Source: a virus. From it: a DNA stretch of 30,465 nt. Below are positions 5,223-19,800 of this stretch, in pieces. The stretch is taken from IMG/VR virus record IMGVR_UViG_3300005367_000212, positions 1 through 30,465 of that record. One strand, written 5' to 3'. Position numbers and translations under genes: made by a program. The first letter of the stretch is position 1; each line of letters starts with the position of its first letter. The notes beneath the pieces are model-generated. The model was not told where the DNA came from. It was given only the letters and a program-made list of their open reading frames with translations, and did not search any database.

Positions 5223-5278
5223 TGGCGCGAGTGACGGGGCTCGAACCCGCGACCTCCGGCGTGACAGGCCGGGTGCTC
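5223..5278 (-). other. attL: 3' fragment of tRNA-Asp(GTC)
   Basis: Read on the minus strand, this is the 3' part of a tRNA: anticodon stem CCGGC/GCCGG with loop CTGTCAC (anticodon GTC, Asp), T arm GCGGG TTCGAGC CCCGT, acceptor strand CACTCGC, discriminator G and CCA (5225-5223). The D loop and the 5' acceptor strand are missing: beyond about 5278 the sequence is unrelated. A phage that integrates into a tRNA restores the gene at one junction and leaves the 3' piece at the other. By orientation, the intact tRNA-Asp should be at the right junction, outside the window. The exact core cannot be set without that copy. Confidence 0.85.
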
Positions 5279-5291
5279 CTGTAAGTAAATC

Positions 5292-5362
5292 AAGGGCCGT
5301 TCCAAGAAACTCGCCCCAAATGGCCCTTTGAAACTCTTGGGCTTTTCGGGGCGAGTTGGAAC
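5292..5362. repeat. Interlocked inverted repeats next to attL
   Basis: Three inverted pairs overlap each other. AAGGGCC (5292-5298) matches GGCCCTT (5322-5328). GTTCCAA-gaa-ACTCGCCCC (5299-5317) matches GGGGCGAGTTGGAAC (5348-5362) apart from a 3-base insert. CCAAGA (5302-5307) matches TCTTGG (5335-5340). GAAACTC also occurs twice in direct orientation (5306, 5330). The position between the tRNA fragment and the first phage gene fits arm-type integrase/excisionase sites. A transcription end for the leftward operon is the alternative. Confidence 0.6.
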
Positions 5363-5370
5363 GCGCTGGC

Positions 5371-5619
5371 CTAGGAGGTCAGCTCCTTGACCGTCCACAT
5401 GACCGACTCCTCGAGCGCGGTGAAACCGAGGGAGCGGTAGCGCCCTGGCTTCACCTGGTCGAACAGCGCCTCGAGCTCGGCCGCCTTGGTTTTGATCGCG
5501 TCGTGCAGAGCCTTTTCGGCGTCGGTGAGGGCTCGATAGCGGGGCCGGAAGCGCGACACGGGTTCATCTACCTGGTCGGACTGGCGGCCGTCGGGCGGGC
5601 CTTCGTACACGTGGCTCAC
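5371..5619 (-). CDS. Acb2/Tad1-type small hairpin protein (candidate anti-CBASS/anti-Thoeris)
   Basis: This 82-residue protein has an unstructured N-terminus (to about residue 26), then two predicted helices: YRALTDAEKALHDAIK-type (28-55) and a C-terminal helix RYRSLGFTALEESVMWTVKELT (60-81). The patterns YRxLxxxE and LEEsVMWxvK at the end are what I know from the Acb2/Tad1 hairpin family, phage proteins that sequester cyclic nucleotide signals of CBASS or gcADPR of Thoeris. The likely start is GTG at 5619, whose GTGA overlaps the stop of tad2, giving translational coupling; a longer open frame upstream is only a shadow of tad2. Recognition is by pattern on a very short domain, and the ligand-binding residues have not been verified. 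Confidence 0.65.
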   Translation of the reverse strand: MSHVYEGPPDGRQSDQVDEPVSRFRPRYRALTDAEKALHDAIKTKAAELEALFDQVKPGRYRSLGFTALEESVMWTVKELTS

Positions 5620-5873
5620 GGCAGGACCTCCCAATCCTCGTCGAGCACGTCGCTCTGCGAGGCCAGCCATGGGACAACGTCCCCCTGCGCGGTCTTCATG
5701 GCGATGTACGCTCGATAGGGGACCATCTCGCCGAATTCGGCCCGGGCGGCGTCGGTCTGCGCGGCATAGCTGTTCGCGGGCACGTAGTAGAGCCACATGC
5801 CCTTGCCGTTCCAGCCGGCCCGGGTCACGCGAGCGCCGCTCTTCAGCGCCCGCACAGCATCTCCAAAATCCAT
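5616..5873 (-). CDS. tad2: Tad2 family (DUF2829) Thoeris anti-defence protein
   Basis: This 85-residue protein matches the DUF2829 pattern along its whole length: MDFGDAVRALKSGARVTRAGWNGKGM at the N-terminus (residues 1-26), the central PYRAYIAMKTAQGDVVPWL (about 52-70), and the family ending ASQSDVLDEDWEV (71-83). Tad2 proteins form small oligomers that bind and sequester glycocyclic ADP-ribose signals made by Thoeris TIR proteins, and some also bind cyclic dinucleotides. The start ATG at 5873 has AAGGAG four bases upstream, but this site lies in the 3' arm of a perfect palindrome (5880-5901). The gene overlaps the downstream Acb2/Tad1-like gene by GTGA. Family assignment is strong; activity and ligand are inferred. 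Confidence 0.88.
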   Translation of the reverse strand: MDFGDAVRALKSGARVTRAGWNGKGMWLYYVPANSYAAQTDAARAEFGEMVPYRAYIAMKTAQGDVVPWLASQSDVLDEDWEVLP

Positions 5874-5879
5874 GGGTCT

Positions 5880-5901
5880 CCTTCCCCGCCGGCGGGGAAG
5901 G
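5880..5901 (-). promoter_or_regulatory. Perfect 22-bp palindrome over the tad2 ribosome binding site
   Basis: CCTTCCCCGCC is followed directly by its inverse complement. In the leftward transcript the 3' arm contains GGGGAAGG, part of the tad2 Shine-Dalgarno site, so a folded hairpin would hide it. There is no U-tract, so it is not a standard terminator. GCTACC stands immediately upstream on the minus strand and could be a -10. A similar leader precedes the gene at 16302. Confidence 0.65.
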
Positions 5902-5908
5902 TAGCACG

Positions 5909-6184
5909 TCAGCCGGCGGCGTGCGGACGCGGAGGCAGGGCGCCGCGGGTGATGCCGGAACCCGGAACATTCACGAGGCGCTCGCGTCCGGCCAGGCTGA
6001 TGCGCCAGCGCCGCGCCTTCTGACCGACCATCCAGCTCGGTTGGTAAGTTTCGATCCAGCCCTTGCGCCTTAGCGCGCGTCGAACCGGACCGTCAGGCAT
6101 GCGGAACTGACCGTTCCAACGATCCTGGTTGTGCAGCTCGAGGAGCTTGGCCAGCAGAGTGGCCTCAGGGACGGCCTTAGCCAT
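5909..6184 (-). CDS. Small phage protein, possibly winged-helix
   Basis: A 91-residue protein of unknown function. It is basic, with a helix-rich N-terminus (LLAKLLELHN), then RMPDGPVRRALRRKGWIETYQPSW and a WRISLAGRERL segment, which reads like a compact winged-helix domain with a beta wing. It starts at ATG 6184, overlapping the end of the integrase by 8 bases (ATGGCTAA). Such a small basic protein beside an integrase could be an excisionase or a regulator; this is inference from size and position only. It ends 35 bases before tad2, the widest gap in the leftward operon. Confidence 0.7.
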   Translation of the reverse strand: MAKAVPEATLLAKLLELHNQDRWNGQFRMPDGPVRRALRRKGWIETYQPSWMVGQKARRWRISLAGRERLVNVPGSGITRGALPPRPHAAG

Positions 6185-7388
6185 TCCGTAGCCTCATCAC
6201 CTCGCCGGCGAGCTTGACCCGCCCCAGCGCGCGTTTCTGGGCCACCTCGCGGGCTTTGGCGACGGTGGGAGGGGTGTAGGTCTCCTCGAGGAAGCGGCTG
6301 TCGGCCAGGCCGTTGGCGAGGAGCTCGCCCATGGTCTTCCGGTCCGCGCCGGCGGCGTCGGCCTCGACGTTGGCGCTGCGGCGGATGTCGAGCAGCTGGC
6401 GCTCGTCGTCGGGCAGCAGGATCCCGCGCACGAACCGGAAGTCTTTCGCGAAGAGGTCCTTGGTCTTGTAGGCGACGGCCTGCGGCGGCCGACCGCCGCG
6501 ATCGCTGCGATCGGCGCGGGTGCGGAAGATCGGCGTGTCGTCGGCCTCGGCGCGGTCCTGGCGGGCGATGTAGGCCGCGAGCGCCTGGCCGAGCTCGTCG
6601 GAGATGGCGGCGAAGGCCTCGGCCTGGGTCTTGGTTCGCCGGCGGTGGACGTAGAAGCCCTCGCAGTCGCGCTTCAGCTGCGAGGGGCGCAGCGTGCGGA
6701 CGTCGACCGGCGAGAACATGGTCTGCCAGAGCGTCTCGATCGCGAGGCCCATCCCTTCAAAGCCGGCGATCGCCGCCACGGCCGCGAGGTCCTCGATCTC
6801 GGCGCCCAGCCAGATGGCGCTACGGCCCGCCGGCTGCGGGTTGGCGAGCTTGTCGGCCGGGGAGGCGTAGCCGAGCCGCAACCGCACGACGGCGTCGGCG
6901 AGGAGGATCTTCAGCGCCTTGATGGCGCGCCAGCGCTCACGCGGTGAGATTGTCGCCACCAGGTCAGCGTTGAACTGCTCGCAGAGCTCGGTCGTGATCC
7001 TGGTGATCACGGTCCGGGAGAGGGTGGGGCCGATCGGCTGGCCCTTGTCGTCGGCCGGCCGCCACGCGTCGATGTAGCGCCAGCCGCGCTCGTAATCCTC
7101 GCGCGTGCGGACGCTCTTCTTCGACCACCAGGTGGACGGCTTCAGCTTGGATCCGCGCAGCCGGTCCCAATAGGCGCCGAAGGTGCCGGCCGGGTAGTGG
7201 GTGACCTGGCCGCGCTCGCCCTGGGCTTTCTGCCATGCCGCGTAGAGCTTCAGCGCCTCGGCCTGGGCGGCGGGCCCGTCGGGTCCGAGCGGCTTCGGGA
7301 GGAATCCGAGCTCCCGCATCTCCTTGGTCGGTTGCCAGAAGAGATTCCCGCGCTTCTTGACGGTGTAGCGGAGCTTCGCGCTCGTCAC
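6177..7388 (-). CDS. int: Tyrosine recombinase, phage integrase
   Basis: A 403-residue site-specific recombinase placed beside the split tRNA-Asp, so presumably the enzyme that integrated the phage. Residues 1-120 look like the arm-binding/DUF-type N-terminus (KKRGNLFWQPT), followed by a core-binding region (about 120-180) and a divergent catalytic domain. The likely nucleophile is Tyr371 (FLEETYTPP), with Arg337 (DIRRS) and Lys253 (RRRTK) recognisable. The first catalytic arginine expected in TGxRxxE is not seen: the stretch reads TMFSPVDVRTL, with Ser226 at that place and Arg231 five residues on. The HxxR histidine is replaced by Asp. The start is GTG at 7388, overlapping the previous stop (GTGA). 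Confidence 0.88.
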   Translation of the reverse strand: MTSAKLRYTVKKRGNLFWQPTKEMRELGFLPKPLGPDGPAAQAEALKLYAAWQKAQGERGQVTHYPAGTFGAYWDRLRGSKLKPSTWWSKKSVRTREDYERGWRYIDAWRPADDKGQPIGPTLSRTVITRITTELCEQFNADLVATISPRERWRAIKALKILLADAVVRLRLGYASPADKLANPQPAGRSAIWLGAEIEDLAAVAAIAGFEGMGLAIETLWQTMFSPVDVRTLRPSQLKRDCEGFYVHRRRTKTQAEAFAAISDELGQALAAYIARQDRAEADDTPIFRTRADRSDRGGRPPQAVAYKTKDLFAKDFRFVRGILLPDDERQLLDIRRSANVEADAAGADRKTMGELLANGLADSRFLEETYTPPTVAKAREVAQKRALGRVKLAGEVMRLRNG

Positions 7389-13700: not shown

Positions 13701-13931
13701 ATGGGCGCTTTAGAAGCTTTTCGCCGCAAGCGTGGCTGGACGCAGGAGGAGCTCGCCAGAAAGGTGGGGCTCAAGTCCAAGGGCTACATCAGCGCGATCG
13801 AGACGGGCCTCGCGCCCTGTTCGTTCAGCCTGGCCGCCAAGCTCGAGGCGCTCTCCGAAGGCGAGCTGAAAGCATCCGAGCTTCGCCCGGTCGAGATCTC
13901 GGGGATCGCGACGGCCGAGGCTCGCCCCTGA
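13701..13931 (+). CDS. Xre-family regulator (Cro/CI type)
   Basis: A 76-residue protein that is almost entirely an Xre helix-turn-helix domain: LEAFRRKRGWTQEELARKVGLKSKGYISAIETG (about residues 4-36) and the following helices SFSLAAKLEALSEGEL. There is no C-terminal oligomerisation or peptidase domain, so it is closer to Cro or a short repressor than to a LexA-like CI. It is expressed from PR under O3. It ends 10 bases from the convergent gene at 13941. Confidence 0.85.
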   Translation: MGALEAFRRKRGWTQEELARKVGLKSKGYISAIETGLAPCSFSLAAKLEALSEGELKASELRPVEISGIATAEARP

Positions 13932-18828: not shown

Positions 18829-19800
18829 GTGGCTGACATCGCGCTTCCCGCGGTCGCCGGCCGCACAGACCTGATCCAGCTGGGCGAAAGCCTCCGCGCT
18901 TACGCGGACGCCGGCGTTTCCGCCGGGACGCGGCGCTCTTACGAGAGCTCCTGGCGCACGTTCGCCAGCTGGTGCGCCAGCGTCGGCGTCGAGCCTCTCT
19001 CGGCGGAGGCGAGTCACCTCGCTTTGTTTGTCACAGCCCGCGCGCCGCACACGGCCGTCGCGACGCTGGCGCGCGATCTCGCGGCGATCGCCTGGGCCTT
19101 CAGGGCCGCAGGGATTTCGCCGCCGGCGCATCCGGACCTGGATCGCGTCATGCAGGGGATCCGGCGCACGCACGGGCGGCCGCCGCGGAAGAAGAGGGCG
19201 CTGGTTGTCGAGGATCTTCGCCGCGTTCTCGCGAAGCTTCCGGACGGCCTGGCCGGCAAGCGCGATCGGGCTCTGCTTCTGGTTGGATTCGCTGGCGCGC
19301 TCCGACGTTCGGAGCTGGCCGCGTTGGCGATAGGCGGTGCGAATTCGTACCCAATTCGGGCCGATTTCGTGCCTCACGGCCTGGAAATCCATATCGCTCG
19401 CGCCAAGGGCGATCAGGAGGGGAGGGGCGCGATCGTCGCCATCCCCTACGGCAAACGTATTTGCGCGGTGGCCGCGCTGCAGGCGTGGCTCGATGCGGCG
19501 GAGATCCGCTCCGGCCCCATCTTCAGGGCGGTCGATCGGCATGGGCGTGTGAGTTCGGCGGCGATCTCGGATCGGGCGATCGCCGACGTCGTGAAGGCCG
19601 CTGCGAAACGGGTGGGCTTGGATCCGGCGATGTTCGCCGGTCACTCGCTGCGCAGCGGCCTGCTCACGAGCGCGGCCGAGAAGGGCGCGGCGCCCGACGT
19701 GCTGCAGGGCCACGCCCGGCACGCCAAGTTCGACACGACGCGCGGCTACATCCAGGCCGGCGACCGGTTCCGGCGCAACGCCGCGGGGAAGGTGCTTTGA
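18829..19800 (+). CDS. Second tyrosine recombinase with complete active site
   Basis: A 323-residue XerC/phage-integrase-like protein. The N-terminal SAM-like core-binding domain (residues about 12-120: TRRSYESSWRTFASWC...) is followed by the catalytic domain with Arg159 (GALRRSEL), Lys193 (ARAKGD), His272-x-x-Arg275 (GHSLRSG), His295 (QGHARH) and Tyr307 (TTRGYI), so all catalytic residues are present. The start is GTG at 18829. Unlike the integrase at the left end it lies among rightward middle genes, as first member of a coupled group (19797, 19984, 20148). It might resolve multimers, process replicating DNA or invert a segment. The N-terminus is uncertain because no strong ribosome site is visible. 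Confidence 0.9.
   Translation: MADIALPAVAGRTDLIQLGESLRAYADAGVSAGTRRSYESSWRTFASWCASVGVEPLSAEASHLALFVTARAPHTAVATLARDLAAIAWAFRAAGISPPAHPDLDRVMQGIRRTHGRPPRKKRALVVEDLRRVLAKLPDGLAGKRDRALLLVGFAGALRRSELAALAIGGANSYPIRADFVPHGLEIHIARAKGDQEGRGAIVAIPYGKRICAVAALQAWLDAAEIRSGPIFRAVDRHGRVSSAAISDRAIADVVKAAAKRVGLDPAMFAGHSLRSGLLTSAAEKGAAPDVLQGHARHAKFDTTRGYIQAGDRFRRNAAGKVL

Follow-up and report, generated by a model that had tools for sequence, protein, structure and literature searches.

Overlapping Tad2-like and Acb2-like genes beside a prophage attachment site, a probable two-sponge counter-defence cassette

At the left end of a prophage in a Caulobacter-like bacterium, a gene for a Tad2-like protein overlaps one for an Acb2-like protein. 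We propose, with a probability of roughly 70%, that they act as a counter-defence cassette of two sponges whose ligands complement each other; here these would probably be His-ADPR and CBASS cyclic nucleotides. The proposal is based on the family membership of both proteins, the gene overlap, the position beside the att site, the retention of pocket residues and the recurrence of the pair with swapped partners. The window analysed, 30,465 bases in length, is the whole of the IMG/VR record.

A preliminary description of this DNA, made from the sequence, had placed a pair of open reading frames coupled by GTGA at 5371-5873, beside attL. Both frames were found on the minus strand (Table 1), and translational coupling through the overlap is likely. 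As 4-nt overlaps are ordinary in phage genes, it is the identity of the neighbour rather than the overlap that stands above chance. The attachment site was also confirmed: its 50 nt, about 100 bp from the acb2 stop codon, match intact Caulobacteraceae tRNA-Asp genes exactly or almost exactly, and phage sequence takes the place of the tRNA's 5′ part. An intact tRNA would be expected at the other prophage end, with attR beyond the 30,465-base record. Rfam returned no match for the truncated tRNA or the hairpins.

The tad2 and acb2 genes end a leftward gene run, near the head of which lies a helix-turn-helix gene, an arrangement also seen in lambda-like temperate phages. The genes for terminase, portal and major capsid protein run rightward. 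A search of IMG/VR for relatives of the integrase-like protein beside the att site found none. A second, clear tyrosine recombinase is encoded mid-phage, apart from that gene. The palindrome upstream of tad2 (z −1.97; one copy in the window) overlaps the AAGGAG ribosome-binding site of the gene in part and, speculatively, might tune its translation. Past acb2, the strong stem-loop is possibly an end-of-operon terminator lacking a U run; scans near the pair found no classical terminator and no promoter-like site.

Table 1 Features of the locus and selected genes of the prophage
Feature	Position	Strand	Remarks
attL, 3′ 50 nt of tRNA-Asp(gtc)	5223-5272	minus	tRNA comparison
Strong stem-loop past acb2 stop	5308-5357 (arms 5308-5326 / 5339-5357)	minus	z −4.3; possible terminator
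acb2-like gene (Acb2/Tad1 hairpin)	5371-5619	minus	GTG start, 82 aa
GTGA overlap, 4 nt	5616-5619	minus	tad2 stop shared with acb2 start; from the sequence
tad2-like gene	5616-5873	minus	ATG start, 85 aa
Perfect 22-nt palindrome CCTTCCCCGCCGGCGGGGAAGG	5880-5901	minus	directly before tad2 ATG
ORF91, no assigned function	5909-6184	minus	next upstream gene, same leftward run
Divergent putative tyrosine recombinase (integrase)	6177-7388	minus	403 aa; weak phrog_216 integrase match (0.024); beside att
Helix-turn-helix gene	13701-13931	plus	
Second tyrosine recombinase	18829-19800	plus	PF00589 37 bits; phrog_1 2e-18

The assignment of the first protein to DUF2829/Tad2 held up well, with a score of 93 bits against PF11195 (cut-off 25, E = 1.7e-26, profile positions 1-73). 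Among solved proteins, phmmer ranked ModTad2 (8v3e/9eib; 1.7e-27) ahead of SptTad2 (4.9e-15) and SPO1 Tad2 (1.3e-14), and the identity to ModTad2 is about 50% over the full length, with no gaps. The AlphaFold model (pLDDT 96.7) is predicted to have the Tad2 fold: the best Foldseek match was ModTad2 with hisADPR (9eib, E = 2e-11), and 24 Tad2 chains were matched at E < 0.001. The loops that form the Tad2 pocket (PMC12043709), here GWNGKG and W69..D75..D80, are invariant or nearly so; R18, G20-W21-N22-G23, W69, D75 and D80 are invariant across 61 homologues.

The motifs YRxLxxxE and LEExVMW, on which the second protein had been placed in the Acb2/Tad1 hairpin family, are present as YRALTDAE and LEESVMW, and residues 28-78 match PF24729 with 57.1 bits (cut-off 27, E = 2.1e-15). 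Neither phmmer nor a profile search gave a PDB match, so the assignment to Acb2 rests on Pfam, hhalign and the pocket residues. Comparison by hhalign of the clade profile with T4-type Acb2 (probability 95.5%, E = 1.4e-8) pairs Y28, K43 and T67 with Y8, K23 and T68 of T4 Acb2 at the same spacing, and these residues are conserved in 47/47, 46/47 and 46/47 aligned clade members, respectively. In the PaMx33-type protein, the conserved lysine makes contact with the phosphate of the ligand. In T4 Acb2, the Y8A mutant is binding-deficient and T68M binds more weakly (PMC12657230). Loss of ligand-pocket residues was looked for in both proteins of the window, and the residues are kept in both.

The AlphaFold model of the 82-residue protein (pLDDT 86.6) is a two-helix hairpin (33-53/60-81) with both helices at high confidence, where Acb2 has a short N-terminal helix and two long antiparallel ones; residues 1-30 are extended in the model (pLDDT 58-79). 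The top Foldseek match was Acb2 (8h2x), with a probability of 0.98 but an E-value of only 0.4 because helical hairpins are common, and VIA-align gave mixed folds, all with Z < 8, with Acb2 among the rows. The N-terminal beta-sheet domain of Tad1 is absent. As modelled, the protein is Acb2-like and not Tad1-like, and only the first half of the earlier family name can be kept. PADLOC and NCBIfam returned nothing for the pair. The window protein belongs to a well-marked alphaproteobacterial Acb2 clade, for which about 90 loci were fetched; its alignment (A3) has 45 relatives at 63-88% identity plus an outlier, L035, at 30%. Members occur in phages and in genomes, among others of Caulobacteraceae, Acetobacteraceae and Bradyrhizobium. 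The clade shares a conserved N-terminal extension of 30 residues, unlike the short helix of Acb2.

The preliminary description knew of no operon described with exactly this composition in Caulobacterales phages. The Tad2/Acb2 pairing is not peculiar to this prophage and recurs in many unrelated phages. By fetching IMG/VR loci with either protein and confirming them with the Pfam models in whole records and representative partners, we identified 24 distinct Tad2/PF24729-type pairs on one strand and no more than 300 nt apart. Both gene orders occur, and many of the pairs overlap or are separated by a few bases. In records longer than 15 kb that hold both genes, the two lie within 300 nt of each other in 15 of 21 cases, where random placement expects 0.7 (P about 1e-18, a statistic that counts related records as independent and includes a second Tad2 scan seeded with a paired locus); about three more of the 21 have both genes within 5 kb. 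A pair is also present in the cultured Mycobacterium phage MalagasyRose, whose Tad2 (gp4) overlaps by 1 nt the 195-residue gp5, with a hairpin domain scoring 79 bits. Curiosium gp5, which adjoins the Tad2 of that phage, was considered as a hairpin partner and rejected, as it is not a hairpin protein.

The hairpin partners vary. Grouped by eye, within what a loose BLAST threshold links in one network, they are of the alphaproteobacterial 82-residue type (the window, L150/L153), the T4 type (L021), an FNPSGD type (L028, L036, L249, L250, L270 and others), an RHQYR type (L258, L261, L265, L279), a Gram-positive YHPP/YHAP type (L060, and L035 with one gene between) and yet another kind (L312). The Tad2 closest to that of the window by identity (76%) is in L021 (IMGVR_UViG_3300037466_000534), where it overlaps a T4-type Acb2 (PF24729, 74 bits) by 4 nt; a similar Tad2 is joined to another Acb2 subfamily, and partners have therefore been swapped. 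The best Tad2 tree requires 16 changes of the paired state, and at least 4 of these are forced by well-supported branches. Fusions of the two genes were absent from 209 Tad2 open reading frames. Cellular genomes held both families at low frequency over the cut-offs (PF24729 in 6/385 and PF11195 in 2/385 genomes of the class; 7/299 and 2/299 in the family), none of them adjacent, and the T4-type Acb2 genes of Brevundimonas, Caulobacter, Rhizobium and Rhodobacter phages have no Tad2 within 2 kb. Our search found no published description of a Tad2-Acb2 pair; a 2025 sponge-diversity preprint and a 2026 sponge paper lie outside that search, and priority is uncertain.

Both proteins could be sponges that act independently and share nothing but a variable slot for accessory genes, in which case their joining would have no selective value. 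The window pair does occupy an integrase-att slot typical of accessory genes, 115 of 138 unique Tad2s have no Acb2 neighbour, and none of 48 further records from the Acb2 clade to which the window belongs holds a Tad2, the pairing there being known, besides the window, only from L150/L153. However, 15 of the 21 long records against about three with a wider spacing up to 5 kb represents tighter clustering than a common accessory region would give, and the partner family is repeatedly the same while its subfamily and the gene order vary. We regard this alternative as possible but rather doubtful. A broader proposal, which we make tentatively and at slightly less than even odds, is that operons of Tad2 and a hairpin protein are repeatedly assembled, broken and re-assembled, with selection on the joint range for ADPR-type signals and cyclic oligonucleotides rather than on either protein, so that the partner predicts the mix of Thoeris, CBASS and Panoptes in the hosts. 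When the decoy nucleotide of Panoptes is removed by Acb2, by Tad1 or, to a slight extent, by SptTad2, Panoptes kills the cell (PMC12657218, PMC12657230). As this makes sponges costly, partner swapping could be favoured.

With regard to ligands, MoTad2 blocks type II Thoeris by binding His-ADPR, and SPO1 Tad2 blocks type I through gcADPR (PMC13299392). A tree built from 138 unique Tad2 domains and three PDB sequences placed ModTad2 inside the 27-row clade of the window protein (SH-aLRT 93, moderate support since alignment columns are few), with SPO1 and SptTad2 outside. Being closest to ModTad2, the window protein is likelier to act on His-ADPR and type II Thoeris than on gcADPR and type I, and His-ADPR is its most likely ligand. 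The suggestion of a dual anti-signalling unit is thus retained for its family assignments and coupling, but its emphasis on gcADPR is not. The pair may, as also suggested, be expressed in the lysogen; no promoter-like site was found nearby, and both genes stand last in the leftward run. Tad2 proteins such as SptTad2 carry a longer insertion that binds cyclic dinucleotides; the window Tad2 lacks it, and pairing with a cyclic-nucleotide sponge would therefore make sense. The 82-residue protein probably binds CBASS cyclic nucleotides, given its conserved residues.

Alternatively, the Tad2-like protein may bind gcADPR or cADPR isomers (type I Thoeris), or the Acb2-like protein cADPR, so that both would target Thoeris. 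SPO1 Tad2 and HgmTad2 have been solved with gcADPR/cADPR isomers (PMC12043709), and an Acb2 homologue has been solved with 3′cADPR (9ptq), making a Thoeris ligand conceivable for the 82-residue protein too. The window Tad2 is nevertheless much closer to ModTad2, which binds His-ADPR, than to SPO1 or SptTad2, and we consider this alternative rather unlikely. That the 82-residue protein is a small structural or assembly factor which merely has the hairpin and is no sponge seems very improbable: a relative in Sinorhizobium phage Aussie (L212, 3980-4216) does sit between head-tail adaptor and stopper genes, and the N-terminal extension does differ from Acb2, but the Tyr, Lys and Thr that bind cyclic dinucleotides are retained at the same spacing, in the window the gene lies well away from the head genes at 22-30 kb, and head-gene position is no argument because Rhodobacter phage RcWaterboi (L379) also carries a T4-type Acb2 among its head genes.

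For the two-sponge cassette, the scheme we infer as to ligands, oligomers, expression and benefit to the phage is as follows. On infection or induction, early leftward transcription would pass through the integrase gene, ORF91, tad2 and acb2, and ribosomes re-initiating at the GTGA overlap would translate acb2. The Tad2-like protein, whose relatives are tetrameric, would bind an ADP-ribose-type signal, most likely His-ADPR, that Thoeris TIR proteins make; the Acb2-like protein, whose relatives are hexameric, would bind the cyclic di- and possibly trinucleotides made by a CBASS CD-NTase. Together, the sponges would keep the abortive-infection effectors of Thoeris and CBASS off. Both kinds of target exist in the host family, as Caulobacteraceae genomes encode ThsB_TIR (81/219, mostly large TIR proteins rather than typical ThsB) and SMODS CD-NTases (24/219).

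Other Tad2 neighbourhoods were noted in the survey. In Alcaligenes phage QDWS595 (L369, 1165-1755), a Tad2 domain is fused behind a PF13876 (N4 gp49/Sf6 gene 66) domain, and in Acidovorax phage AP1 (L361) a gene-66 protein follows the Tad2 gene; the sponge Acb4 is N4 gp48, which, going by the gene numbers, is next to gp49. A cluster that may serve counter-defence is present in Rhodobacter phage RcXuper (L363, 1429-3004), where an RNA ligase and a MazG-like pyrophosphohydrolase come after a Tad2-like gene. The Tad2-like gene of Aeromonas phage Ahp1_CNU-2021 (L366, 1468-3189) immediately precedes a nicotinamide phosphoribosyltransferase of NAD+ salvage, which suggests a joint unit for anti-Thoeris activity and NAD+ repair.

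Single sponge proteins cover several signals. A recurrent sponge pair, if true, would mean that phages also broaden signal coverage by combining sponges, and would give a discovery rule, namely to search beside tad2 or acb2 for new counter-defence genes. Natural partner swaps separate ligand range from phage background, and a two-sponge pair can be tested in MalagasyRose, a cultured phage of M. smegmatis. The overlooked alphaproteobacterial Acb2 clade carries a prediction for CBASS, and the ModTad2-like clade one for type II Thoeris.

Among known systems, ModTad2, the anti-Thoeris 2 protein of a Myroides odoratus prophage (8v3e, 9eib), shares the PF11195 family and the predicted fold with the window Tad2, but comes from another host phylum, and we found no Acb2 partner described for it. 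Acb2 (T4 Vs.4, 7uq2; p26, 8h2j) has the PF24729 hairpin and the Tyr, Lys and Thr that contact cyclic dinucleotides in common with the 82-residue protein, which differs in its lack of direct phmmer similarity, its conserved N-terminal extension, modelled as extended rather than as a helix, and its shorter inter-helix loop. Tad1 (CbTad1) shares the hairpin model and gives a weak Foldseek match, whereas the window protein is about 40 residues shorter and lacks the N-terminal beta-sheet domain. The pair in L021 has the gene order and 4-nt overlap of the window, but its second gene is of the T4 type, not the alphaproteobacterial 82-residue type. In the NARP1-RyDEP operon and the Dap1-Dap2 pair, too, counter-defence genes of phages stand in tandem and work jointly (PMC13232231, PMC13083879); their products are enzymes or Lon antagonists, whereas the window pair encodes two putative signal sponges.
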